This document shows positions 1-38,393 of a DNA stretch of 64,000 nucleotides, piece by piece. The stretch covers positions 2,666,001-2,730,000 of the forward strand of contig NZ_CP137891.1 of NCBI RefSeq assembly GCF_033547075.1. The letters are read 5' to 3'. The DNA comes from Flavobacterium ardleyense. Its GTDB lineage: Bacteria; Bacteroidota; Bacteroidia; Flavobacteriales; Flavobacteriaceae. Within the stretch, counting starts at the first letter, position 1. Every line of letters starts with the position of its first letter. The notes beneath the pieces were generated by a model. It worked only from the letters and a program-made list of their open reading frames with translations, did no database searches and was not told where the DNA came from. Position numbers and translations under genes: made by a program.

Positions 1-1
1 A

Positions 2-748
2 CTGCACCAACGTGGGTATCGAACTGCGACCAATATTGCGCCGATCAATGAGGTTTTAGGTGCTGGAATGCTCCTACTTTCTGGTTGGGACGGTCAAGGC
101 GATTTCCTAGATCCTATGTGCGGTTCTGGAACTTTGCTGATAGAAGCTGCGATGATTGCCTGCAATATTCCTGCAAATATCAACCGACGTGAGTTTGGAT
201 TCGAAAAATGGAATGATTGGGACAACGAACTTTTTGATACCATTACCGACTCTCTGCTGAAAAAAGTTCGTGAGTTTCATTATACGATTACTGGTTATGA
301 CAAAGCGCCGTCTGCTGTGCAAAAAGCAAAAGACAACGTGATTAATGCCAATCTTCAAGAGTATATCAAAATCAGCGAGAAGAACTTTTTCGATACTCAA
401 AAAGAGACAAAAGGCCCGCTACATATCGCGTTTAACCCACCTTATGGCGAGCGTCTTGACATTCAGATGGAGCGTTTTTACCGAGAAATTGGCGATACCC
501 TCAAAAAAGAATATCCTGGCACAAATGCTTGGATGATTACCGCAAACCTTGAAGCATTGAAGTTTGTAGGTCTGAGACCATCGCGTAAAATCAAGCTTTT
601 CAACGGAAGTCTTGAGGCGCGTCTAGTGAAGTACGAAATGTACGAAGGTAGCAAGCGAACAAAATTCCAAATGGATCGTGAAGATGAAGAAGCTCCAGAA
701 GTTGAGCAAATTCAGGATACAAATGAAGAGCAAGAAAATCAAAATTAA
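2..748 (+). CDS. THUMP-type class I SAM-dependent 23S rRNA guanine methyltransferase, 3' part
   Basis: This is the C-terminal 248 residues of an RlmL/YcbY-type rRNA N2-guanine methyltransferase. The reading frame is open back to base 2, so the gene starts before the window and its THUMP domain is missing here; the ATG at 68 is internal. The frame begins with an LHQRGYR stretch, followed by a glycine-rich SAM-binding motif (DPMCGSGTLLIEAA, bases about 110-150) and the N-P-P-Y catalytic motif (NPPYGERL, near base 434) typical of enzymes that methylate exocyclic amines. The last 30 residues are acidic and poorly conserved. The family acts on 23S rRNA in the cytoplasm; the exact target base is inferred from the family only. 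Confidence 0.9.
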   Translation: MHQRGYRTATNIAPINEVLGAGMLLLSGWDGQGDFLDPMCGSGTLLIEAAMIACNIPANINRREFGFEKWNDWDNELFDTITDSLLKKVREFHYTITGYDKAPSAVQKAKDNVINANLQEYIKISEKNFFDTQKETKGPLHIAFNPPYGERLDIQMERFYREIGDTLKKEYPGTNAWMITANLEALKFVGLRPSRKIKLFNGSLEARLVKYEMYEGSKRTKFQMDREDEEAPEVEQIQDTNEEQENQN

Positions 749-759
749 AATATAGATTT

Positions 760-993
760 ATGTCCAAACAAATCAAAGCATTCGTATTTCAATTAGGCTG
801 TTTCGCCATTTTATTTGTGATCGCACGTTACTTAGTTGCCGAATATACTGGCCTCACAGGCTATTGGATTCCACTTACCGCATTTGTAATTGGAACATTA
901 TTGGCACCAAAATTCCACGCCGTAAAAACACAAGAAGGCGAAAAATTGTACTGGAAATGGCTTTTTGTAAAAGGAGTTAGAGAAATAAAATAA
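760..993 (+). CDS. Small conserved membrane protein
   Basis: This 77-residue protein has two hydrophobic segments (about residues 8-28 and 33-50) and a basic C-terminal tail ending in KGVREIK. It starts 11 bases after the methyltransferase stop and probably shares its transcript. No catalytic motif is visible. The function is not known; it resembles the short uncharacterised membrane proteins often found next to this methyltransferase in Flavobacterium, a resemblance drawn from memory. Confidence 0.75.
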   Translation: MSKQIKAFVFQLGCFAILFVIARYLVAEYTGLTGYWIPLTAFVIGTLLAPKFHAVKTQEGEKLYWKWLFVKGVREIK

Positions 994-1000
994 GAATTAA

Positions 1001-1090
1001 GATTTGGGCGTTCCCTTCGGGCAGGCTGTCCACTATATCTTTTTCCTGTCCAAAAAAGGCCAGAAAAAAGGATGCCGCTCCCATCCTTAA
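1001..1090 (-). repeat. Flavobacterial intergenic repeat, family A, copy 1
   Basis: Reverse-strand copy of the element also seen at 27608-27700 and 57904-57988. The shared landmarks are GGCTGTCCACTATATC on this strand, an internal hairpin with paired CCTG/CAGG-type arms, and GGATGCCGCT. It sits between a coding region and a terminator. No coding potential is supported. Confidence 0.65.
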
Positions 1091-1097
1091 CGCAAAC

Positions 1098-1142
1098 AAC
1101 CTCGACCATGATTCATTTGAATTGTGGTCGAGGTTTTTTTTT
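1098..1142 (+). terminator. Rho-independent terminator
   Basis: An 11-bp perfect stem (AACCTCGACCA with TGGTCGAGGTT) around a 16-base loop is followed by an uninterrupted T tract. It closes the transcript of the methyltransferase and small membrane protein genes. The A-rich left side is weak, so it acts mainly on the plus strand. Confidence 0.92.
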
Positions 1143-1270
1143 GAAAATGGGGAATATTGGTAGGAAATTATGTCGGGATATTGGAAGTTGCATTTTTTTT
1201 AACAGTAATAATCTATTAAAAATTTCTTAAATGCTTAATATAATTTTCTATATTGCTGTGGAAAATAAGA

Positions 1271-1329
1271 CTGACGTTTGTCAGACATATATACTAATAT
1301 TGAGGTTAGTATAGCTGACGCTGTTAGGC
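1271..1329 (+). other. Integron-like core site GTTAGGC with upstream inverted repeats
   Basis: GTTAGGC at 1323-1329 fits the integron recombination core GTTRRRY and equals the core of well-known attI/attC sites. Just upstream are two small palindromes: CTGAC..GTCAG at 1271-1284, and ATACTAA (1291-1297) paired with TTAGTAT (1306-1312). The first accessory gene starts 13 bases downstream. I read this as the left boundary of the cassette array, either an attC half or the end of an attI-like region. The 7-base core alone would occur by chance; the position and the downstream attC-like element give it weight. Confidence 0.5.
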
Positions 1330-1341
1330 ATATTAATAAGT

Positions 1342-1944
1342 TTGGTGAAAATAAAAAAAACATTGAGAGAGGAATTTAAATACGAATTGATGGATAATCC
1401 TGTCTCATTCATTTGCTCTAAATGGATGTTGGATAGAACACCTTTCATTTTCGGAGAGGACAGAATAAAATATATTGAATGGAAAGAACAACTTGCTGAA
1501 AAACTTCAAGTGGATAGTAAATCTATGGTCTTTACTGGAAGTTCAAGTTGCGGTTTTAGCTTAAATCCAAATAAAAATTATCGTGAATTTAACGAGGGTT
1601 CGGATATTGATATTGCCATAATTTCCAGTTATCATTTTGATATAGCTTGGAAGACTTTAAGAAATTTAGGAACAAAACGTTTCGACCTAAATAGCGTTCA
1701 ACAGAATTGCCTAAAAGAACACGTTAACCGTTTAATTTATTGGGGAACTATTGCAACAGACAAAATATTAGAGATACTTCCATTCGGTAAAGAATGGACA
1801 TTACATTTACTTAATATGGAAAAAGTTGACCCAATAAATGATAGAACGATAAATATTAGAATTTATAAGGATTATGAGTCTCTACGAGCATATCATATAA
1901 ACAACTTAACAAATTTAAGAACTCAACTCTTCGAGAATGAATAA
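1342..1944 (+). CDS. Nucleotidyltransferase-fold protein, partner of DUF262 protein
   Basis: This 200-residue protein has the signature of a DNA polymerase beta-like nucleotidyltransferase: FTGSSSCGFSL (a GS-containing helix) followed by GSDIDIAI with two metal-binding aspartates, around residues 65-95. The start is TTG at 1342 or GTG at 1345; no ATG lies nearby. The stop overlaps the start of the DUF262 gene by 8 bases, so the two are translationally coupled. Both lie in one cassette of the array. A nucleotidyltransferase paired with a ParB/GmrS-like NTPase suggests a defence or toxin-antitoxin function. That is inference; the substrate is unknown. Confidence 0.8.
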   Translation: MVKIKKTLREEFKYELMDNPVSFICSKWMLDRTPFIFGEDRIKYIEWKEQLAEKLQVDSKSMVFTGSSSCGFSLNPNKNYREFNEGSDIDIAIISSYHFDIAWKTLRNLGTKRFDLNSVQQNCLKEHVNRLIYWGTIATDKILEILPFGKEWTLHLLNMEKVDPINDRTINIRIYKDYESLRAYHINNLTNLRTQLFENE

Positions 1945-2986
1945 AATGACAAATTTTTTAAATACAACAAATAGAAATGTGGCTTGGTTCAAAGGAGCTT
2001 TTGACCGTGGAGAATTGGATATGAAACCCCCTTTTCAACGAAACCCAGTTTGGGTAACGAAACAAAAAAGTTATTTGATAGATACTATATTAAATCAGTA
2101 TCCAATTCCAGAAATTTATATGCAGGAAACTGTGGATGAAAAAGGCAAGGCAAAATATATTATTGTGGATGGGCAACAAAGAACACGAGCAATGTTAGAA
2201 TTTCTTGAAGGTAAATATTGCATTAATGGCAAGGAAAGCCCAGATTTTGCAGATATGTATTTTGAAGATTTAACCGCAGAGCAAAAAAAGACATTTTTTC
2301 AATACAATTTTGTGATTCGAGTTTTACCTGACATTCCAGACCCTCAATTGAGAGAAATATTTCAAAGATTGAATAAAAATGTCGTTTCACTTAATAAGCA
2401 AGAATTGCGACAAGCCACATATTGGGGACCTTTTATAAAAACAATGAATACTTTATCCGATAAAGATTATTGGAGTAAAATTGATGTATTTACAGCTAAC
2501 GATATTAGAAGAATGTTGGACGTGGAATATATTAGCGAATTGGCAATTTTTTATATGCACGGCTTCCAAAATAAAAAGGACAATTTGGATAAATATTATG
2601 CATTGTACGAAGAAGAGTTTGAAAACAGTAAAGAGGTAATTGAGACTTTTGACACAGTAAACGGAGAAATTCTTAAGATTCTACCAGAAATAAATAATAC
2701 AAGGTGGAGTAAAAAAGCTGATTATTATACATTATTTGGCCTCTTTGCAAAACAAAAAGATGAACTTCCACTATCTAAAGATAAAAGAGAAATGGCGAGA
2801 AGTAAACTTTTGGAATTTGCAGAAGAGATTAACTATTTTGTAAAAACAGACAAAGGCGATGAAGAAGTAAGTTACAATCCAGAAACTAAAGAATACGGAA
2901 GAGGAATTAGAGCAACGACAGATTCAGGAAGTCGAAAAGTTAGAGAAAACGCACTAAATATGAAACTCGAAGGGCTTTGGGAATAA
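1937..2986 (+). CDS. DUF262 family protein (ParB/GmrS-like N-terminal domain)
   Basis: This 349-residue protein carries the DUF262 hallmarks: an N-terminal FQRNPVW (about residues 33-39) and IVDGQQRTRAMLEFL (about residues 75-90), the DGQQR motif being the nucleotide-binding signature shared with ParB and with the GmrS half of the GmrSD restriction enzyme. No DUF1524 HNH nuclease domain is visible in the C-terminal half, which is helical and charged. It overlaps the upstream nucleotidyltransferase-fold gene by 8 bases. DUF262 proteins are often part of anti-phage systems; here the effector would have to be the partner or an unrecognised C-terminal domain. Confidence 0.85.
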   Translation: MNKMTNFLNTTNRNVAWFKGAFDRGELDMKPPFQRNPVWVTKQKSYLIDTILNQYPIPEIYMQETVDEKGKAKYIIVDGQQRTRAMLEFLEGKYCINGKESPDFADMYFEDLTAEQKKTFFQYNFVIRVLPDIPDPQLREIFQRLNKNVVSLNKQELRQATYWGPFIKTMNTLSDKDYWSKIDVFTANDIRRMLDVEYISELAIFYMHGFQNKKDNLDKYYALYEEEFENSKEVIETFDTVNGEILKILPEINNTRWSKKADYYTLFGLFAKQKDELPLSKDKREMARSKLLEFAEEINYFVKTDKGDEEVSYNPETKEYGRGIRATTDSGSRKVRENALNMKLEGLWE

Positions 2987-2993
2987 TAACTAG

Positions 2994-3124
2994 TACTAAC
3001 ACCGTATATAAGTTATGGCTTGGTCTATGCCTACTTGGAAAATCCTGCGGATATACCATAGCCAGCTTTTATTTGGAGGGGTTTGCACTAAAACACGCCA
3101 CGCTCATATACATCAACGTTATGC
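2994..3124 (+). other. attC-like recombination site
   Basis: A 131-bp imperfect palindrome lies between the DUF262 stop and the next gene. It begins TACTAACACCGTATATA and ends TATACATCAACGTTATGC, so the outer boxes are inverted copies of each other, as the R and L boxes of integron attC sites are. The inner arms also pair partly (GGCTTGGT against ACCATAGCC). GTTATGC at 3118-3124 is a GTTRRRY-like core. It has the length and architecture of a chromosomal-type attC site. A folding calculation was not possible here. Confidence 0.6.
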
Positions 3125-3167
3125 ACAATAATGAAGAACCTCAAACAGAACAACAGAAAAGAAGAAT

Positions 3168-3665
3168 ATGGACAAATTTATAAGTGATGGTGGAGATTGG
3201 TTCACATTCCTTGGTTTTGTATTTTCAATACTTACATTTCTCGGAATACTATTCAACAAAAGTATTCTCAAAAAAATTAACAAAAAGAGTTTTTCTATCA
3301 ATAGAATGCCGGAAAATTTAATTGATTTGAAGACTATTAGTAGAAATATTTCTATATTTAATTCTGAATTTGATAGTAAAAAACCTGAAATATTAATAGA
3401 AATAAATAAGCTTTCACCAATATTAAAATCTTTGAAAAAATCCTTAAATAAAGCAGATTTAGAACATTTTAATTCGCTCAGTGCAGAAATCAAAAAAGTA
3501 AGTAAAATTTATTATGAAGAAAGTAAAGTAAACAGAATGAGAAAATTCATTGGTAATTACATTATTTTAAATGAAGACTTTGTAGACAAAATATATCGAT
3601 TTTTAACGGTTTTAATAACTGACATTGAAAACATATCAAATGATAATCAACAAAATTTAATATAA
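3168..3665 (+). CDS. Membrane-anchored hypothetical protein in a two-gene cassette
   Basis: This 165-residue protein has one transmembrane segment near the N terminus (about residues 11-30) followed by a lysine-rich, largely helical region of about 130 residues that may form coiled coil. No family was recognised. It is the first gene of a cassette bounded by GTTATGC (3118-3124) and GCATAAC (4029-4035), and its stop is 2 bases from the next ATG, so the two genes are co-translated. The translation is very rich in Lys, Ile and Asn, like other cassette genes here. Confidence 0.65.
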   Translation: MDKFISDGGDWFTFLGFVFSILTFLGILFNKSILKKINKKSFSINRMPENLIDLKTISRNISIFNSEFDSKKPEILIEINKLSPILKSLKKSLNKADLEHFNSLSAEIKKVSKIYYEESKVNRMRKFIGNYIILNEDFVDKIYRFLTVLITDIENISNDNQQNLI

Positions 3666-3667
3666 TT

Positions 3668-4024
3668 ATGAATAAAGAAAATGAATTTATTTTAAAGTTG
3701 ACCAAAGAAACTTTGCGAAATAATATTAAATGGACTGATAAACAAAATAAAGGTCTTATTCTTCCGCACGAAGAAAGAGTAACAAGTAAATTATACATAA
3801 CTACCATTGATGATAAAAAAATTAGAATCTACGAGTATCAGTATAAACATTATACAGATGAAGATGAGTGGCTTTGGAACCAAAGAGTACGGCTTGAAAT
3901 GATAGATATTAATGAAGAAAAAATTTATGAATTTGGCTATAATTATGCTTTAAATGATCTATTTAATGCTGTTACGAAGTCAAATGCTGGTGTTGATGAA
4001 TTCCTCGATAAATTTCTAAAATAA
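3668..4024 (+). CDS. Hypothetical soluble protein, second gene of cassette
   Basis: This 118-residue cytoplasmic protein has no signal peptide or membrane segment. It contains a charged, aromatic-rich centre (KHYTDEDEWLWNQRVRLEM, about residues 58-76). No family was recognised. It starts 2 bases after the membrane-anchored gene and ends 5 bases before the GCATAAC box that opens the next repeat unit. A membrane protein plus a small soluble partner would fit an effector/immunity or toxin/antitoxin pair, but nothing in the sequence proves it. Confidence 0.65.
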   Translation: MNKENEFILKLTKETLRNNIKWTDKQNKGLILPHEERVTSKLYITTIDDKKIRIYEYQYKHYTDEDEWLWNQRVRLEMIDINEEKIYEFGYNYALNDLFNAVTKSNAGVDEFLDKFLK

Positions 4025-4028
4025 CTGC

Positions 4029-4389
4029 GCATAACGGCAAATACTTCGTGGGGCTTGAAAAGCCAACAACCGAACTTTTGTGAACTTGCGAAGCAATGAA
4101 GCCTTGACTGAATAGCTTTTCCCAATTTTTATCGGGAGCAATGTTAAGATTCCATACCTATGAAGTAAATTTATCGAGAGTTTTTGAGTGTTTCCCTTCT
4201 TTTGGAGCAGAGCTACTCTTAGTCGTGCAACTCGGGCAGTTTTTATAGCTTTTACTAGCTTCTAAAATTTAAAACAAATGCTTATCGGTTTTTTAAAACA
4301 GGGATTTATTATTCGTTAAATAGGCTATATTTACTTCAAGAATTAATGTTGAATAGGAACATAGAAGGTTTTTATACGAAATGACGTTA
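4029..4389 (+). repeat. Cassette repeat unit 1 (attC-like ends, internal promoter)
   Basis: This 361-bp unit begins GCATAACGGC and ends ATGACGTTA, inverted ends of the form TAACGnC. Landmarks shared with the other units, in order, are: a GGCTT..AAGCC hairpin; CCGAAC..GAACTTGCGAAGCAATGAAGCC-type sequence; a TCCC..GGGA hairpin; GTTAAGATTCCATACCTATG; GCTTATCGG; TTATTATTC; TATATTTAC; and GAATAGGAAC before the end. Left of it lies the two-gene cassette, right of it a lipoprotein gene. It carries no open frame of its own. Confidence 0.8.
4305..4333 (+). promoter_or_regulatory. Promoter-like motif conserved in all cassette repeat units
   Basis: TTTA at 4305-4308, a 17-base spacer, and TATATTTA at 4326-4333 resemble the Bacteroidota housekeeping promoter (TTTG, about 17-23 bases, TAnnTTTG), with A for the last G. 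The same -7 box is at 5185-5192, 6483-6490, 7545-7552, 8384-8391 (TACATTTA) and 8915-8922, always 45-60 bases before the right end of a unit and within about 140 bases of the next start codon. Each unit therefore probably supplies the promoter for the gene that follows. Confidence 0.55.
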
Positions 4390-4407
4390 AAAGTAATTAT
4401 ACATATG

Positions 4408-4884
4408 AAACTAAAAATCAGTCTCTTAATCATATTTTATCTGTCGTTTGTTGGTTGTAAAGCACAATCAAAACCTTGTCTTTTACAATATATAAATCAC
4501 GTAAACACATTAGAAATTCTAACTGTTGACGATCAGTGCGGAGAATGGGGAGGAAATGAAAAATCAATAATAATTTATAGAGATAGTTTTAAAGGAGAAC
4601 TTCTTGCTGATTATGTTGAGAAAACAAAAAATTGCAAAAGTGAAAAAAAATCTGAAATAACAAAATCGAAAAAAAGAATTAAACTAACGGAAACAGAAAC
4701 TGAATTAATTCTTGAAAGTGTAAATGAACTTTGCGAAAAAAAATTGAACCGTGAAGACTTTCCAAGTCATAGTGGAATATTTAATCGAATTATGCTTAAA
4801 GACTCTTCAATGATAGTAAGTGATTTTCCATCAGTTAAATTGAAAAGTTTAAGTAAATTAATAACCGAACTGGAAACAAAATAA
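4408..4884 (+). CDS. Cassette lipoprotein of unknown function
   Basis: This 158-residue predicted lipoprotein starts MKLKISLLIIFYLSF and has the lipobox FVGC, placing the lipidated cysteine near residue 18. I chose the ATG at 4408 because the upstream in-frame ATG at 4381 lies inside the conserved repeat edge and would put residues before the signal peptide. The mature part is Lys/Glu-rich, with cysteines in CKSEKK and CEKKL. No family was recognised. It is a single-gene cassette between units 1 and 2. Confidence 0.7.
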   Translation, partial: KLKISLLIIFYLSFVGCKAQSKPCLLQYINHVNTLEILTVDDQCGEWGGNEKSIIIYRDSFKGELLADYVEKTKNCKSEKKSEITKSKKRIKLTETETELILESVNELCEKKLNREDFPSHSGIFNRIMLKDSSMIVSDFPSVKLKSLSKLITELETK

Positions 4885-4888
4885 CCAC

Positions 4889-5243
4889 CGCTAACACCTA
4901 AGGCTCCATTGTCCTTAAATGGCCAGCACCCAAACTTAAGTGAACTGGTGAAGCAATGAAGCCTTGGTTGAACAGCCTGTCCCGATTTTATCGGGAGAAC
5001 CGGTTGAGATTCCATCCCTATGGAGTAAATTGATCGAGAGTTTTTGAGTATTTTCTATCACTTGGAGCAGAACCACTCTTAGTAGAATAACTCCGCAGTT
5101 TTTAGAGGTTTCTACCAGCTCCTTAAATTTAAGAAAATCCTTATCGTTTTTTTACAGCATCAATCTATTATTCGGTAAATAGGCTATATTTACTATAATG
5201 TTTGAATAGGAATTCGGAAGGGTTTTTAGACGAACTGACGTTA
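4889..5243 (+). repeat. Cassette repeat unit 2
   Basis: This 355-bp unit opens CGCTAACACC and ends CTGACGTTA. It is the closest relative of unit 1 and shares the whole internal segment from ATTGATCGAGAGTTTTTGAG to the promoter-like TATATTTA at 5185-5192. It has a perfect TCCCGAT/ATCGGGA hairpin. The boundary GTTACCTGC at 5240-5248 matters because its complement recurs, with one mismatch, as GCAAGTAAC at 6135-6143, the other end of the cassette it opens. Confidence 0.8.
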
Positions 5244-5269
5244 CCTGCAAGCATAAAAAAACAGAAATT

Positions 5270-6127
5270 ATGAACACAATATATTTACAAGACGGAGCAA
5301 CCCATTTATTAGGAGAAACCTGCCAACTTTTGAACGAACAGAAAATCGAATATTTAATTGTTGGAGGATGGTCACCTTACCTACTTAATCAAGCAAAATA
5401 TCCTCATCCAGGAACAAAAGATGTTGACGTATTATTTAAATCTGGGACAGAAAAAGGACAACTAAAAGAAGTAATTCAATCATTTATTAATGAAGGTTTT
5501 ATACAAAGCGCAAAACATCCTTTTCAACTATTAAAAACGTATAAACTAAATGGACATAATTTTATGTTCAATGTTGATTTACTTCATCCTGACAATCAAG
5601 CAGAGAAACCTGAGAAATATGTGGACCATATTGATTTTCCAGTAAAGGAATCAAAATATATGAGGATTGATTATAGTGGAAAAACTATAATCCTACCTCA
5701 ATCTGATTTATTCTTTGATGAGTTTTCATTTTTACATACACAAAATATTCAATTTTTAGACGGTTCAAAAAATGATGTTTCTTTTAATTTGCTTGATGAG
5801 GCTGGATTAATTCTTTCTAAAACCAAAAGTGTTTATAATGCAAAAAGAACAAGAGATGCATATGATATATTTCTTGCTTTTTATCAAGGTAGAAATCCTG
5901 AAAAGACAATTCAACAATTAAAATCAGTTTCAGAAAAATATCCTGACGTTAAAACATCGCTTCAAAAAATGTACACTGAAAAGAATTTAGAATTGTTTAA
6001 TACAAATTGCTATGAATGGTTTAGCAACTTGAACGTTAGCGAAGGTGAACGTGAAATAGTAGTTAATGAGTATGAAAAATTCTTTAAGAGTATAGATCTC
6101 CAAATTCTAACAGAAAAAGATAATTAG
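5270..6127 (+). CDS. Nucleotidyltransferase-fold protein (AbiEii/DUF6036-like)
   Basis: This 285-residue protein has the core of a nucleotidyltransferase fold: LIVGGWSPYL (about residues 30-39) and GTKDVDVLF with two acidic metal ligands (about residues 49-57), then a third region, FMFNVDLL. This resembles AbiEii-type or DUF6036-type minimal nucleotidyltransferases, which often act as toxins. No partner gene lies in the same cassette, so if it is a toxin its antitoxin is elsewhere. It starts 27 bases after unit 2 and stops 8 bases before unit 3. The family is inferred from motifs; the function is not established. Confidence 0.7.
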   Translation: MNTIYLQDGATHLLGETCQLLNEQKIEYLIVGGWSPYLLNQAKYPHPGTKDVDVLFKSGTEKGQLKEVIQSFINEGFIQSAKHPFQLLKTYKLNGHNFMFNVDLLHPDNQAEKPEKYVDHIDFPVKESKYMRIDYSGKTIILPQSDLFFDEFSFLHTQNIQFLDGSKNDVSFNLLDEAGLILSKTKSVYNAKRTRDAYDIFLAFYQGRNPEKTIQQLKSVSEKYPDVKTSLQKMYTEKNLELFNTNCYEWFSNLNVSEGEREIVVNEYEKFFKSIDLQILTEKDN

Positions 6128-6134
6128 AATGCCA

Positions 6135-6546
6135 GCAAGTAACAGCAAAGGATTCGTTGCGCTTGAAAAGCCAACACCCGAGCGATAGCGAACTTGCAAA
6201 GCAATGAAGCCTTTGTTGAACAGCCTGTCCCGATTATTATCGGGGGAACCAGTTTGAGATTCCATTCCTATAGAGTTAGCGTAAAAGAATTAGGAAGATA
6301 TAAAGAGGATTAGTAATCCTCTTTTTTAATGGTGTCAAATGTTCGAAGGTTTTGGACTGTTTTCCTTCAATTGCCGCAGACTTATCCTACTAGTACAAAT
6401 CCGCAGTTATTAAAGCTCCTAAAATTAGAAGGAGATTCTTATCGGATTTTTGAAACAGCAATTTATTATTCGGTAAATAGGTTATATTTACTGTAAAAAT
6501 AAGTTTAAATAGGAACTTGGAAAGGTTTTTAGACGAATTGACATTA
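6135..6546 (+). repeat. Cassette repeat unit 3, with embedded terminator
   Basis: This 412-bp unit opens GCAAGTAACAGC and ends TTGACATTA. It has the GGCTT/AAGCC-type hairpin neighbourhood, CCCGAGCGATAGCGAAC, the TCCCGAT hairpin and the -7-like TATATTTA at 6483-6490. Relative to units 1 and 2 it has an insertion holding a terminator (6302-6328) that is also visible, decayed, in units 4 and 5. A TTG-initiated frame beginning at 6517 inside the unit is not taken as the next gene's start. Confidence 0.8.
6302..6328 (+). terminator. Terminator inside cassette repeat unit 3
   Basis: AAGAGGAT, a TAGTA loop, ATCCTCTT and a run of T form a short but complete intrinsic terminator. It lies downstream of the 5270-6127 gene and upstream of the unit's promoter motif, so it would insulate the two cassettes. 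The corresponding bases in units 4 and 5 no longer pair well. Confidence 0.75.
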
Positions 6547-6564
6547 GGGGAAATTTCTGAAAAT

Positions 6565-7341
6565 ATGAACATAGAAGAAACTATAGAATTTGCAAATAAT
6601 AAAAAACCGTATGTTTTTAGGTATAGACAAAACTGTGAAAATACTCTTTCCGAAATAGCCGAAAGTTATATATATTTCCCGACAAATGAGAAATTGAATG
6701 ATCCATTTGACGCGAATCATAAGTTGATAAATATTCCAAATAATAGTATGGCCATTTCAAATTGGGCAAATTCACTTTCGAATAATTTTGATAATCAAGT
6801 TGCTAAAAAGTACTTCGAAACATTCTACATAAACAATCCGAAGGAGCTTTATAATTTTATAAATCAGAATATTAAAGCCTTTTTTTCACAATTTGGAATA
6901 GCATGCTTCACAATCTCACCAGTAAATTTGCTTTTGTGGGCGAGCTATGCGAATAATCACCAAGGAATTTGTATACAATATAATACAGACTTAGATAAGA
7001 ACTTTTTTGATGATATTCGCTTAATGGAATATGTCAAGGAATTTCAGAAAATTGAATATTTACCTGAAACTGAGCATGAATCTTTACTAAACTTATTTTA
7101 TAAAAAACTTGAGGTTTGGCGTTATGAATATGAATTACGTATAATAAAACAACAGTACGGTAAACACAATGTTAATCCTATGTCTATACGAAGTATTGCG
7201 TTTGGACTTAGATCTACGACTGATTTTAAAGATAAAATTATTGATATTGTAAAATCAAAGCATACACATATCAAATTATATGAATCAGAGGTTTTAGAAA
7301 ATACTTATGGCCTAAGTTTTACTCAAATGGAAATAAGATGA
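6565..7341 (+). CDS. DUF2971 family protein
   Basis: This 258-residue protein matches the DUF2971 pattern: an N-terminal YRQNCENTL/YIYFPTNEKLNDPFD block and a central block CFTISPVNLLLWASYANNHQ followed by GICIQYN. DUF2971 proteins are uncharacterised, frequent in accessory islands, and resemble ADP-ribosyltransferase-like folds only by loose suggestion. The start is set at the ATG at 6565, because the longer frame from TTG 6517 would run through the conserved repeat edge. It is a single-gene cassette between units 3 and 4. Confidence 0.82.
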   Translation: MNIEETIEFANNKKPYVFRYRQNCENTLSEIAESYIYFPTNEKLNDPFDANHKLINIPNNSMAISNWANSLSNNFDNQVAKKYFETFYINNPKELYNFINQNIKAFFSQFGIACFTISPVNLLLWASYANNHQGICIQYNTDLDKNFFDDIRLMEYVKEFQKIEYLPETEHESLLNLFYKKLEVWRYEYELRIIKQQYGKHNVNPMSIRSIAFGLRSTTDFKDKIIDIVKSKHTHIKLYESEVLENTYGLSFTQMEIR

Positions 7342-7347
7342 AACAGC

Positions 7348-7600
7348 TCCTAACAGAAAAGGATTCTTTGGGCTTGAAAAACGCAAACCTGTGCTTTTGC
7401 AAACTGGCGAATCAATGAAGTTTTTGTAAAACAGCCTGTCCCCGACTTCTATTTGGAGAGCTGGTTGTGATGCCAACCTTAAGAAGTTATCGTTGACGAC
7501 ATTTTAGAATATCAAGTGGATTAGTAGTCCTAATTTTGATAGGGTATATTTACTTGAAAATTAAGTTTGAATAGGAATTTGCAAAGGTTTCTAGACGAAC
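7348..7600 (+). repeat. Cassette repeat unit 4
   Basis: This 253-bp unit opens TCCTAACAG and ends CTAGACGAAC. It lacks the middle segment found in units 1 and 2, keeps the GGGCTTGAAAA and TGGTTGTGATGCCA landmarks, carries a decayed version of the unit 3 terminator (GTGGATTAGTAGTCC), and has the promoter-like TATATTTA at 7545-7552. The CCTAA at its left end complements the TTAGG that opens the DUF2971 cassette. Confidence 0.75.
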
Positions 7601-7628
7601 TATCTTCCAAAAAACAAACGTGCAGAAA

Positions 7629-8174
7629 ATGAAGCAATCTAAATTTCTTATTTTAATCATAATAATATGCATTCAACTGTTCGTAGGATGTAAAAATATT
7701 CAGAAAGAAACGATAACGGGAAAAGATTCGTCAAAAAATAATTTGATGTACAAGAATGATATTGTTAGTTATCAATTTATTTTTCCTGACACTGCGTATG
7801 TTGGTAAATCATACGACGGTAAAATAAAATATCAAGGGATTTTAGATTCAATAACAACTAAGTTTGAATTTGATGAAAATAAAACAAGTCGATACGTCAA
7901 TTTTCTTTCAACTATTACTGAAAAAGATGTGAAAAATATGGAGCAGTTAACAATGCAAAAGATTGACACTATTGGCGCACTTGATAATAACACAATTTTA
8001 TTATCAGACATAAAATTTAAAAAAACTGGAACATTCTATATTGACGGAATTATTAGTGATGTCGTGTATATTCCAACTAATAAAAAAGACAAAGACGATG
8101 ACAGCTTATTCAGAAAAATTGCAAATGACTCCCGAGCAACCCACAAGGTAGTTGTTATTGAAAAGCCTAATTGA
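7629..8174 (+). CDS. Cassette lipoprotein of unknown function
   Basis: This 181-residue predicted lipoprotein has signal peptide MKQSKFLILIIIICIQLFVG and cysteine in the lipobox FVGC. The ATG at 7629 is preferred to the GTG at 7620. The mature region contains a YQFIFPDTAYVGKSYDGKI segment resembling the start of a beta-sandwich, and a lysine/aspartate-rich C terminus. No named family was recognised. It lies alone between units 4 and 5. Confidence 0.7.
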   Translation: MKQSKFLILIIIICIQLFVGCKNIQKETITGKDSSKNNLMYKNDIVSYQFIFPDTAYVGKSYDGKIKYQGILDSITTKFEFDENKTSRYVNFLSTITEKDVKNMEQLTMQKIDTIGALDNNTILLSDIKFKKTGTFYIDGIISDVVYIPTNKKDKDDDSLFRKIANDSRATHKVVVIEKPN

Positions 8175-8187
8175 CAATATGGCCTAC

Positions 8188-8440
8188 TGCCAACAATAAT
8201 GGCTACGTTGGATTTGAAGAACCAACACCCGGGCAGTAGCGAACTAGCTAATCAATATAGCCTTTGTTTTATAGGCTTTCCCGACTTTTATTGGGAGAAC
8301 TGGTTATGATTCCACCCTATGGAGTTAACATGTACAAGTTGTGACGATTTCAATGCGATTAGTAATGTTCTTTCTTGACAGGCTACATTTACTTCAAGAT
8401 TCAATTTGAATAGGAACTTAGTAGGTATTTTAGACGAACT
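8188..8440 (+). repeat. Cassette repeat unit 5
   Basis: This 253-bp unit opens CTGCCAACAATAATGGC and ends TAGACGAACT. It is closest to unit 4 in length and content: it has CCCGGGCAGTAGCGAAC, a TCCCGA/TTGGGA hairpin retained through a G-T pair, and TACATTTA at 8384-8391. It separates a lipoprotein gene from a toxin-antitoxin remnant. Confidence 0.75.
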
Positions 8441-8523
8441 GAATTTGCTGGTAAAGCGAGGAAAATCGTTTTACAATTAATCATTTAAGTAAAAAATTGT
8501 ATTTTTGAATAAATATTCGAATT

Positions 8524-8760
8524 ATGGATTTATCAACTAGAAAGCTAAATTTAATAACATACTTGGCTCAAATTAAGGATGAAATTTTTTTTGACAAATT
8601 GGAGAATTATATCCTAAAAAGAGAAGCTGAACTTAACCCAGAATTAAAGCCATTTACGGTTGAAGAACTAATCAATAGAATTGAAATGTCCGAACTGGAT
8701 TTTGAAAACGGGAAATTTAAAAGCCAAGAAGATCTAGAGAAAATATCTGCAAATTGGTAG
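8524..8760 (+). CDS. Type II antitoxin-like protein
   Basis: This 78-residue protein is of the kind that precedes RelE/ParE-type toxins in Bacteroidota. It has an MDLSTRKLNLITYLAQIKD-like N terminus, a helical central part, and an acidic C terminus with RIEMSELDFENGKFKS and a terminal W. Two bases after its stop a toxin frame begins that is truncated after 30 codons. The antitoxin itself appears complete. The assignment rests on its size, its position and remembered similarity to flavobacterial antitoxins. Confidence 0.7.
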   Translation: MDLSTRKLNLITYLAQIKDEIFFDKLENYILKREAELNPELKPFTVEELINRIEMSELDFENGKFKSQEDLEKISANW

Positions 8761-8762
8761 GA

Positions 8763-8855
8763 ATGAAAATAGTATGGACTGATTTCGAAATCAGAAATTT
8801 AAAGGACGTTTTTGACTATTATTCTACTCTAGCTGATAAAAAAGTTGCTCTTTAA
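8763..8855 (+). pseudogene. RelE/ParE-type toxin, truncated after 30 codons
   Basis: The frame starts MKIVWTDFEIRNLKDVFDYY, typical of the N terminus of ParE/RelE toxins, which are usually about 95-100 residues. After KKVAL the sequence switches to the interior of the cassette repeat (AACCAAATGCTTATCGG, as in unit 1 near 4270) and a stop appears at 8853-8855. The catalytic C-terminal two thirds are lost, so no active toxin is expected. Confidence 0.75.
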
Positions 8856-8970
8856 ATTCCAACCAAATGCTTATCGGTTTTATAAAACAGCGATTTATTA
8901 TTCAGTAATTAAGCTATATTTACTTCAAAATACAGTTTGAACAGGAACTTGGAAGGTCTTTTAGACTAGC
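8852..8970 (+). repeat. Partial cassette repeat unit 6
   Basis: Only the right-hand 119 bp of a unit 1-type repeat is present, from AAATGCTTATCGG through TTATTATTC and TATATTTA (8915-8922) to TTAGACTAGC. Its left part and the 3' end of the toxin gene are both missing, so a deletion or recombination joined them. It should still supply a promoter for the next gene at 9016. Confidence 0.75.
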
Positions 8971-9015
8971 TGAATTTGCCAACTCTATCTGCCTTGGAAA
9001 CAGAAATATCTACTT

Positions 9016-9531
9016 ATGGAAAATTTTAATAATTTGCAATTTAATACTAAATCTTTTGTTGTTCTTCTTGCAATCATAACATTATATATTTTATACTATT
9101 TAATTAAGAATTACACAAAACTCAACGTTCAGTTAAAATTAATACTGATTATTATTGTAATAGGTCTTCCTTTTAAAATTTACGACACAATTGGAGCTGA
9201 CAATCAAATACAAGCTTTAGTAGAAAATTTTGATGTAACTAATGGGAAGGTTATAAACTACGTTATAGGAAAAGGAAAAGCAACTAGTTATATTGAGTTT
9301 AAATATTATGTGAATAATATTGAATTAATTAAAAAATATGACAATACTTCTTACAGTAGTTTCCCTGTTGAAAAGCCAAATCTTAATTCTGAATATTTAG
9401 TAATTTATGAAAATGGAAATCCAAATAATAGTTTAATTTTATTTAATTATGAGTTGAAGAGTAAAGACGATTTGGAGAAATACAAAATCGAATTCCAAAA
9501 AGAAATCCCGGAAAACGCATTCAATCATTGA
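9016..9531 (+). CDS. Hypothetical membrane protein
   Basis: This 171-residue protein has two hydrophobic segments (about residues 12-30 and 38-55) followed by an approximately 115-residue soluble part. A YIEFKYYVN stretch and SEYLVIYENGNP resemble DUF3592-like periplasmic or cytoplasmic beta domains, but I cannot assign a family. It is the last gene of the cassette region, downstream of partial unit 6, and is followed directly by 108-bp tandem repeats. Confidence 0.65.
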   Translation: MENFNNLQFNTKSFVVLLAIITLYILYYLIKNYTKLNVQLKLILIIIVIGLPFKIYDTIGADNQIQALVENFDVTNGKVINYVIGKGKATSYIEFKYYVNNIELIKKYDNTSYSSFPVEKPNLNSEYLVIYENGNPNNSLILFNYELKSKDDLEKYKIEFQKEIPENAFNH

Positions 9532-9532
9532 A

Positions 9533-9856
9533 TCAAAAAATTTGAAAAGAAAATTTGTGCTACAACGACTATTCTGCGATAAATCTTCAACTGAAAATGT
9601 CACTAAAAATTACGCGTCCAGCATAAATTCGGCGAAAGCCACAGTTTAATCGAAAAGAAAATCGTTGATACAACGACTATTCTGCGATAAAACTTCAGCC
9701 GAAGATGTCATTAAAATTTACGCGTCCAGCATAAATTCGGCGAAAGCCAAAGAAAAATTGAAAAGATAATAGTTGATACAACTTCTATTCTGCGATAAAC
9801 CTTCAACTGAAAATGTTACTAAAAATTACGCGTCCAGCATAAATTCGGCGAAAGCC
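9533..9856 (+). repeat. Three tandem 108-bp repeats (family D)
   Basis: Three copies follow each other with an exact 108-bp period; the shared end AATTCGGCGAAAGCC finishes at 9640, 9748 and 9856. Each copy contains ACAAC..CTATTCTGCGATAA, CTTCA(A/G)C(C/T)GAA and ACGCGTCCAGCATAAATTC. The copies differ by a few substitutions. The array ends on the last base of the YeiH stop codon. Single related copies occur at 49832-49910, 52100-52217 and 52286-52365. Confidence 0.9.
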
Positions 9857-10842
9857 TAAATAAGATTAAGAATCGCATAAAGAGAGCCAACAGAAATGGC
9901 AATCCAAAGCACAACGCCCTGCACCAAAGGCTTCACACCAACTGACATCAAGACTTTTTTGGACAAACCAGCACCAATTAAGAACAAAGTAAGCGTAAGA
10001 CCCGCTTTGGCAATCGCGACTATAGTTGGACTTACCAGCGACACCACAGGAAGATACGAATTGGCGATCATTGCAAGCACGAAAAGTCCAATGAAATAAG
10101 GAATTTTGACCTTTCCACCGTTGTTTTTAAAGAGCATTGTCGATACAAAAGCAAGAGGAATAATCCAGAGCGCACGAGCCAATTTGATGGTCGTCGCCAC
10201 CTGCAAAGCCTCGGGACCATAGACATCTGCCGCGCCCACAACCGAACTTGTATCGTGAATGGCAATCGCGCACCACATTCCGAATTGATGCTGCGACATA
10301 TCGAGATAATGCCCTACAAATGGGAATACGAAAAGTGCAATGGAATTTAGAATAAAAACTGTTCCTAAAGCGACCGAAATTTGCTTTTCGTCAGCCTTGA
10401 TAACTGGCGCAACTGCAGCTATAGCACTACCTCCGCAGATCGCAGTACCGCTGGAAATAAGATAAGAAGTCTTTTTTTCGATTTTTAAAAATTTCCCTAA
10501 AAGATACCCTAAAATCAAGGTTGTGAAGATGGAAACGATGGTAAATATTAGTCCGTCCTTACCTGCTTTTAAGGCCGAATCAACGTTCATCCCGAAGCCT
10601 AAACCAACCACCGAAATTTTGAGCAGCCAGTTAATCGACTTCGAATTCCATTCAATATATGGATGACCGATGAGCTGCGCAAGAATTAATCCAAGCAATA
10701 AAGCTAGTGGTGTGGACATTATCGGCGTCAAACACAGAATAGCGGCGACGATAAAAATGATTTTTCGAGCAAGAATGTTGTTCGGAAATAAATAGATATC
10801 CGACTTTTCTTTTTTGACTTCTGTATGGTTAGATTCTGACAT
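9856..10842 (-). CDS. YeiH family putative sulfate exporter (UPF0324)
   Basis: This 328-residue integral membrane protein has about ten hydrophobic segments and the YeiH/UPF0324 signatures: GLGFGMN (about residues 77-83), SSGTAICGGSAIAAVAPVI (about residues 129-147) and AIHDTSSVVGAA. The family is annotated as sulfate or sulfonate exporters on limited evidence. It lies 71 bases downstream of a LysR regulator gene on the same strand, so both may be transcribed together. In E. coli the equivalent pair yeiE/yeiH is divergent. The stop codon touches the 108-bp repeat array, which may have replaced the native 3' flank. Confidence 0.88.
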   Translation of the reverse strand: MSESNHTEVKKEKSDIYLFPNNILARKIIFIVAAILCLTPIMSTPLALLLGLILAQLIGHPYIEWNSKSINWLLKISVVGLGFGMNVDSALKAGKDGLIFTIVSIFTTLILGYLLGKFLKIEKKTSYLISSGTAICGGSAIAAVAPVIKADEKQISVALGTVFILNSIALFVFPFVGHYLDMSQHQFGMWCAIAIHDTSSVVGAADVYGPEALQVATTIKLARALWIIPLAFVSTMLFKNNGGKVKIPYFIGLFVLAMIANSYLPVVSLVSPTIVAIAKAGLTLTLFLIGAGLSKKVLMSVGVKPLVQGVVLWIAISVGSLYAILNLI

Positions 10843-37603: not shown

Positions 37604-37844
37604 GCTTTCCACATTTAATTTGAGGTAAAAGTGTTGAAGGATTTCAAAGCTACAGAATTTAACACCTACTCAGATGTATAAAGTATCTCATTATAATTCT
37701 TAAATAGAATCATCGCGGCTTACAGATTTCGCGAACTTCGTTACCAAGATTTTCGGCTAAGACAAAATTTCTTGCGAAAGACAACCGTGAATTTACCACA
37801 TATTTCGCCATTATATAAACTACGGTCAGTGGCAACCAAATTTA

Positions 37845-38336
37845 TTAATCTAAATCATCTGGAATATTTCCGTCTCTCCATTCATTAGCCTGTTCTTCGC
37901 CACCTGAAAATGTTAATGATTTTTTACTGTCAATATCAACAAACGAAAAAAGCAAAATATGGTAACCTTGATCATTGTAATTTTTTGAAATTTTATCGTC
38001 GTTCATTACGTTACTGAAAACTCCCAACATTCTAAGAATAGCACCTTTTTTTTGATAGTCACTTTTAATAAATGATGCAATCCATATTTTATTTCCATCA
38101 GCAAATTCTGCCAAATAATATGGCTTTCCATTATATGCTTCATACAATTCTATAATTTTTGCATCGAATGCGTAAAATTTGCCTTCAAGAAATTTAAGTT
38201 TATCTTTCTCTTGATATACTTTGATTGTGTCGACTAAACTTCCATTTGTATTGATTGGAAAATTTTTTTGACAAAATGATTTTAATGAGGTTGTCATTAA
38301 TAAAATGTAAAATAATAATTTAATTCTGGTTTTCAT
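37845..38336 (-). CDS. Secreted hypothetical protein
   Basis: This 163-residue protein has a signal peptide (MKTRIKLLFYILLMTTSLKS) and a mature part with FYAFDAKIIELYEAYNGKPYY. No family was recognised. The C terminus is acidic. The 240 bases to its left (37604-37844) hold no gene or repeat that I can see. Confidence 0.7.
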   Translation of the reverse strand: MKTRIKLLFYILLMTTSLKSFCQKNFPINTNGSLVDTIKVYQEKDKLKFLEGKFYAFDAKIIELYEAYNGKPYYLAEFADGNKIWIASFIKSDYQKKGAILRMLGVFSNVMNDDKISKNYNDQGYHILLFSFVDIDSKKSLTFSGGEEQANEWRDGNIPDDLD

Positions 38337-38393
38337 TTTTTATTTAGTTATTAGGTCGGTTTATATTGCTTGCCACGAACTTATAAACTGGAT

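Follow-up and report, generated by a model that had tools for sequence, protein, structure and literature searches.

The window analysed here is the stretch of 64,000 nucleotides at positions 2666001-2730000 of NZ_CP137891.1, the single 3.185-Mb contig of the Flavobacterium ardleyense genome. Near its left end, between 1242 and 9531, repeats alternate with short unrelated genes, all running in one direction. The array opens with an attI-like site without an integrase (1242..1342, plus strand), which shares 81% identity over 101 bp (E = 1.4e-23) with the attI that follows the gene of a 347-residue tyrosine recombinase elsewhere in the genome, termed Int347 below. That recombinase has an attI of its own, behind which stands a main array of 29 cassettes or more. 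Very probably, then, the cassettes of the window form a secondary array, by now decayed in part, which belongs to an integron-like system and which Int347 would serve from its distant location. A first-pass annotation had recognized an integron-like cassette array of a Bacteroidota genome with no adjacent integrase, and this stands; its further idea of a CALIN-like array (cluster of attC sites lacking an integrase) was incomplete, since a matching tyrosine recombinase was indeed found elsewhere in the genome, in two copies. No relic of an integrase was seen in window positions 1-1400.

All parts of the array lie on the plus strand. GTTAGGC at 1323, earlier taken as a core, is present but lies inside attI; comparison with other attI sites places the crossover core, AAG^TT (1338-1342), at 1340/1341. 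Cassette A has two genes, 1342..1944 (200 residues, no Pfam match) and 1937..2986 (349 residues, a GmrSD_N domain protein; PF03235, 3.5e-22), and is followed by a short attC site at 2994..3124. Cassette B (3118..4035) contains the open reading frames (ORFs) 3168-3665 and 3668-4024, starts with GTTATGCACA and ends with TGCGCATAAC, complementary at 9/10 positions. Next comes unit 1 (4026..4388, R' GTTAAAAG), the first of six longer repeats, which we read as an attC site carrying an IS91-like right end in its left part and, in its right part, the right end of an insertion sequence (IS) that we take to be IS1182-like. By the same repeat and IS-end comparison we delimited unit 2 (4886..5242, R' GTTACCTG), unit 3 (6134..6545, core mutated to ATTAGGGG), units 4 (7345..7600) and 5 (8185..8440), both with the R' core lost, and unit 6 (8852..8970), which has the IS1182-like right part only. 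Between them stand cassettes C (4386..4895, ORF 4405-4884), D (5240..6143, ORF 5270-6127) and E (6543..7354, ORF 6565-7341, DUF2971; PF11185, 4.2e-5), with ends complementary at 6, 8 and 6 of 10 positions. Over the pairs of cassettes B-E, 18 of 28 variable positions are complementary (binomial 1.8e-4). The cassette F gene (7629..8174, 181 residues) has a homologue (43% over 129 residues) in locus L169 of another genome (17862-18236), by coordinates inside the fifteenth chained cassette of that array. The cassette G gene (8524..8760, 78 residues, no Pfam match) precedes an ORF start at 8764 that is cut by unit 6; by eye, 8524-8851 resembles a toxin-antitoxin pair truncated by that unit. The final ORF (9016..9531, 171 residues) seemingly sets the right limit of the array, beyond 8970. 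Directly 3' of it, at 9537-9856, are three tandem 104-bp repeats (86-90% identity), and related sequence seems, by eye, to follow other small arrays as well.

Int347 is encoded twice on the minus strand, at 2283563-2284606 and 2296722-2297765, 370-383 kb from the window array, because a 13,161-bp segment is tandemly duplicated. The duplication (2282485-2308802, 99.97%) carries integrase and attI twice and is either real or an assembly artefact. The NCBIfam models give Int347 212 bits for XerA (cut-off 220) and 207 bits, in two pieces, for the integron integrase TIGR02249 (cut-off 265). Alignment to Vibrio cholerae IntI4 leaves 15 residues in Int347 where IntI4 has 57, and the IntI insert of about 41 residues is absent. 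The distance from the box I arginine motif to HxxRH is 94 residues in 23 measurable relatives of the genus and 135 in 10 IntI, with rows lacking the pattern (16 genus, 16 sister-group, 1 IntI) left out. The structure model of a 61%-identical homologue (pLDDT, the predicted local distance difference test, 83.5; N-terminus poor, residues 30-62 below 50) has no helix at the position of the insert. Among PDB structures it comes closest to IntI4 (2A3V), by a narrow margin over XerA; the best sequence relatives of Int347 with a solved structure are XerA and archaeal Xer (5HXY, 4A8E). Int347 is not an IntI, as it scores below the cut-off of that family and has no I2 insert, and we therefore do not file the system as an IntI integron. 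The integrase tree was built by a quick procedure and carries long-branch warnings, so that any placement of Int347 relative to IntI is tentative; the distant relatives L192 and L193 fall outside the main Int347 clade of this tree. A search of 199 genomes of the genus returned Int347 from 100 (E 1e-60), 79 of them at 54% identity or more, and 40 of these places were fetched, mostly the best ones plus two distant.

A palindromic site with two-fold symmetry, whose last letters are ATATAAACAAG^TT, is reached within about 105 bp after the Int347 stop codon, and from there cassettes run on in the same direction. The genome has four such attI-like places: the window, both duplicated copies and 1577389. 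An attI-like site is seen by eye after the recombinase gene in the 40 loci, its boxes changing together, with two exceptions (L162 is without the GTT, and the contig of L170 ends before it); in sister groups of the phylum it was seen by eye after 19 of 20 homologues taken from among the best. The core was located by pattern in 38 loci, once (L188) misplaced. The first cassette offers a test that, like those of the edges, is free of the selection built into cassette chaining (see below). For 28 of the 34 loci long enough for it, the complement of the nine nucleotides that start at the attI core is met again within 3.5 kb, against 42 of 947 controls; with ten nucleotides this holds for 20 of 34, against 17 of 947. 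Such a complement is the mark that a circular cassette opened at G^TT would leave. By this comparison, attI lies beside the integrase and insertion would occur at G^TT. The interval between recombinase and attI also holds a putative Bacteroidota-type promoter box, TAnnTTTG, after the integrase stop (32/40 loci versus 93/2000 windows), which probably drives the first cassettes. An Rfam search of window positions 1000-10000 gave only Flavo-1 RNA (1015-1098) above cut-off; Flavo-1 was dropped as a regulator beside the integrase, being present in 3/20 loci.

Chaining onward from attI succeeded in 25 of 33 loci and gave 139 cassettes altogether, the longest chain having 24 in 18 kb. The core-to-core length of their sites has its mode at 119 bp, with 77 of the 139 at 118-120 bp. 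The unusually long repeats noted first are thus not the normal site of the system, which measures about 119 bp, and appear to be remodelled versions of it. Many arrays consist of plain 110-125-bp sites with no room for an IS. Agreement of R'' with the beginning of the cassette it closes is complete (132/132), a figure built into the chaining, and R'' equals the R' of its own site in only 6/132. Sites below 200 bp close 129 of the cassettes; in 112 of these the longest ORF points forward, in 4 it points backward, and the other 13 lack an ORF of 60 residues. The own genome was chained separately from its relatives, with its own conditions on the site start, and its main array has at least 29 cassettes over 33 kb, among them a single cassette repeated seven times in tandem. 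A two-gene cassette resembling HigB/HigA by eye (L037, 8175-8771) heads another small array of this genome. Of 20 sister-group loci chosen from the best, only 6 gave forward chains; when these 20 were searched with the attC model described below, together with L061 and L052, 18 of the 22 sources had matches, 59 in all. A reverse-strand run of the sister-group search does not serve as a control, because the sites are palindromic.

The short attC sites share a hairpin. A covariance model, R1, built from 59 attC sites of other genomes, matches the window at exactly 2994-3124 over its full length (model positions 1-133; 21.2 bits, E = 0.018). In the own genome it further matches 34 times in the main array and once in the array of L035, where two long attC units (8768-9370 and 10004-10606) hold what looks like a group II intron domain V. 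Over the 19-pair stem of the 59 sites, 88.8% of positions are paired versus 58.1% after shuffling, and both-sided changes number 322 versus 100.2; because sites were picked for similar arms, the pairing figure is inflated, the compensatory changes less so. Stem covariation is 0.705 versus 0.178 when shuffled, none of 500 shuffles reaching the observed value, and slid alignments give at most 0.135. Two irregular positions of the stem are conserved among 106 distinct sites, a T.G wobble at position 5 (75 sites) and an A.C mismatch at position 14 (74 sites). Extrahelical bases are absent from 57/123 sites and irregular in the remainder, a count that depends on the gap penalty; with slightly shorter arms, 68/123 sites are without extra bases. 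IntI-type attC sites of the phylum, located in a similar way, have extra bases in all but one of the 33 that were scored (36 sites from 6/20 loci, of which 1 was weak and 2 were dropped). In a 31-site sample, folding of the bottom strand was more stable than that of mononucleotide shuffles (median z -3.55; top strand -2.48). The cassettes thus possess both R''/R' cores and pairing L''/L' arms.

The long units of the window appear to be such sites altered by ISs. Repeat search found the repeats where the first-pass annotation had placed them: the left part occurs in five copies starting at 4017, 4877, 6125, 7336 and 8176 (61-77% to the reference) and the right part in six, from 4324 to 8913 (63-85%). 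The reported difference in unit ends is also real, ACGTTA or ACATTA closing units 1-3 and not units 4-6. By eye, units 1-5 start right after a stop codon with unrelated sequence until NNNNYAAC, and the 19 repeat starts in the genome regions scanned all have NNNNYAAC with similar sequence beyond it; again by eye, a stop codon immediately precedes most of them. Related repeats occupy 2238-2297 kb and two shorter regions (1577-1581 kb, 333-335 kb). At least six attC sites of the main array are interrupted by an IS91-type element, 2.36 kb long and equipped with an additional tyrosine recombinase, its right end abutting the AAC of R'' and an attC starting with AAC following its left end; the copies there are near identical. 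The element belongs to the IS91 family by PF04986 (Y2_Tnp, 3e-60), PF14319 (Zn_Tnp_IS91, 8.7e-32) and NF033538 (435.5 bits, cut-off 125), and its added recombinase is XerA/IntI-like. In relatives the right end stops at GCTGTT|RRRY in 9 of 12 loci inspected (1 variant, 2 truncated). We also noted IS91-type elements with an added tyrosine recombinase at the R'' AAC in L031-L033 and L036 (2240-2282 kb, 2876 kb), and again at attC R'' AAC in named relatives.

In window units 1-5 the left part is similar to the right end of this IS91-type element. The right part, present in units 1-6, resembles instead the right end of the IS1182-like IS, which has DUF772 and DDE_Tnp_1_6 domains and adjoins attC cores in another genome. 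From these two matches we infer that the long units are attC sites scarred by two ISs. The first-pass annotation called the repeats promoter-carrying; the TATATTTAC stretch of the units falls in sequence matching an IS right end. An alternative description is one composite repeat. A search for the long unit in relatives found little, in 6 of 120 genomes, because the unit is IS-remodelled and not a normal attC.

Cassettes appear to be mobile, judged from their edges. One cassette occurs at three places of the genome with edges at G^TT, and between GTTACCC and the R' core its two main-array copies are 99% identical to the one in the 1577-kb array. A few cassettes are common to several genomes, with one or both edges at cores. 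The Chryseobacterium plasmids NZ_CP041688.1 and NZ_CP094530.1 have backbone, recombinase and attI in common, with two stretches at 86-90% identity (7.7 kb in total, recombinase included), and in both the alignment ends at ...CATATAAACAAGTT, the attI core (ACAAGTT), with no similarity beyond. The gene content of the array is variable in this pair and among the arrays of other genomes. The attC model gave four matches on the array strand of NZ_CP041688.1, and the array of NZ_CP094530.1 contains an IS91-type element. The plasmid recombinases carry no annotation beyond 'site-specific tyrosine recombinase/integron integrase' or 'site-specific integrase'.

Judged by anatomy and edges, the system captures genes in an integron-like manner. 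Sequence comparison shows its components and how they go together, cassette edges at G^TT, complementary cassette ends and covariation in the hairpin, all of which fit the following scheme. Int347, the likely catalyst of cassette recombination, would insert circular cassettes at the G^TT of the attI directly downstream of its own gene, with single-stranded attC as the presumed substrate. Each cassette would terminate in an attC of about 119 bp, whose arms would form the covarying hairpin with its A.C mismatch and no regular extrahelical bases. At some time cassettes would also have been placed behind the second attI copy in the window, Int347 acting in trans. Later, and perhaps in this order, an IS91-like insertion at the R'' AAC, an IS1182-like insertion next to R' and internal loss would have produced the long repeats; units 4-6 would be expected to be inert after the loss of their cores.

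Several observations weigh against this reading. No chain could be built from 8 of the 33 loci, and since chaining selects for complementarity and arm similarity, the counts and the stem pairing are partly there by construction. R1 matched none of the long units, and its only match in the window array is the weak one at 2994-3124; the 131-bp palindrome noticed there at the outset is thus matched by the model, while its fold is no better than that of shuffled sequences (z 0.39 and 0.41 on the two strands; unit 1, z 0.62). Stem pair types show no excess (44 versus 43.6 shuffled). The ends of cassette A are complementary at only 5/10 positions, and one other pairing of the 24 for cassettes B-E also scores 18. 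On NZ_CP094530.1 the array region gave no attC model match, and the first-cassette complement is absent from one plasmid and confounded by local hairpin sequence in the other. The genome also encodes three other tyrosine recombinases (L038, L048 and L051), and the family search typed Int347 only.

Other explanations are nonetheless far less probable. The units could be a miniature element derived from IS91 and IS1182 that lies between unrelated genes, with no cassette system; the likeness of the unit halves to the two IS ends and the near identity of the main-array IS91 copies would suit this. The IS91 copies examined, however, lie at the R'' AAC within otherwise intact attC sites. Plain arrays of about 119-bp sites with attI, recombinase and complementary ends occur in many genomes and the window array opens with an attI copy, two findings that already refute this view in large part, and we hold it to be very improbable. 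A classical IntI integron, or a CALIN mobilized by an IntI elsewhere or formerly present, is slightly less likely still. Its R''/R' logic, attC arms and attI order would look as they do here, and 84 of 296 genomes of a phylum sample exceed the IntI cut-off; yet a search with TIGR02249 at E 1e-50 returned no canonical IntI from the own genome or from the 17 other same-genus genomes of that sample. The almost universal extra bases of IntI-type attC sites speak against it too, as does the attC model, which had only 2 matches at E <= 0.01 in 343 kb of IntI loci.

The remaining two accept cassettes and dispute how they move. That the tyrosine recombinase of the IS91-like elements moves them, and not Int347, is conceivable for an XerA/IntI-like enzyme with many copies within attC sites, but attI comes after Int347, and so many arrays are made of plain 110-125-bp sites that we give this proposal the same slight chance as the IntI one. 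Homologous recombination among similar attC repeats, as the sole source of shuffling, could generate the seven tandem copies of one main-array cassette. The G^TT edges in unrelated contexts, the break of the plasmid pair at the attI core and ends that are complementary across a gene are not what it predicts, which makes it the least probable of these explanations.

Comparison of the Int347 system with known ones shows where it stands. With IntI integrons (class 1, Vibrio superintegrons) it shares a tyrosine recombinase, attI, cassettes mostly of one gene and one orientation, attC with R''/L''/L'/R', the G^TT crossover, complementary cassette ends and a predicted fold nearest to V. cholerae IntI4. 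It differs in a recombinase without the IntI-specific insert that falls short of the IntI cut-off, in attC sites with the A.C mismatch and no regular extrahelical bases, and in the direction of the array, which is that of the recombinase gene, whereas integron arrays usually run opposite to the integrase gene. Like a CALIN, the window array has cassettes without an adjacent integrase; unlike one, it has an attI copy at its head, an integrase elsewhere in the genome and sites that are mostly remodelled or decayed. A CALIN has at least two attC sites with no integrase nearby, and the window array gave one attC model match. Xer enzymes act on dif sites; from XerA and archaeal Xer, Int347 differs by about 70 additional N-terminal residues and by heading an attI/attC array. 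The IS91-type elements share NF033538, Y2_Tnp and Zn_Tnp_IS91 with other IS91 elements that have an added tyrosine recombinase and differ in being inserted at the AAC of attC R'', the position also used by attC-targeting IS1111 elements and group IIC introns.

Passages of PMC7790495 and PMC4792948 describe the I2 helix as necessary for cassette capture and as found so far in no other protein, and its acquisition as a chicken-and-egg paradox with attC. More tentatively, with the balance slightly against it, we suggest that integrons may come in a second kind, which is frequent in Flavobacterium and extends to other Bacteroidota and to plasmids. Its Xer-like recombinase would never have had I2, or would have lost it, and would recognize folded attC by the conserved A.C mismatch in place of extrahelical bases; it could represent a stage before I2 or an independent origin. 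A recombinase family without I2 at the head of long attC arrays would make the origin of integrons directly testable, and a second kind, if true, would answer whether attC or I2 came first. A review passage counts Bacteroidota among the phyla with integrons (PMC8618304), and in a passage on IntegronFinder 2.0 only Salinibacter ruber M1 is named as a newly found complete Bacteroidetes integron (PMC9024848). Integrons are probably under-counted in Bacteroidota, since a single named S. ruber M1 compares with Int347 in half the genomes of one genus. Titles and abstract beginnings in the openly licensed PubMed Central literature yielded no description of native Flavobacterium integrons, and a lead on Microscilla MTX repeats was not found in open-access literature.

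Away from the array, the window contains a solitary, apparently decayed cassette on the minus strand (37713..38380), which sits between other genes. It comprises a 163-residue gene (37845-38336) and an attC (37713-37823) that R1 matches with 36.3 bits (E = 1e-5), and its start, GTTCGTGGCA, and end, TGCCACTGAC, are complementary at 8/10 positions.

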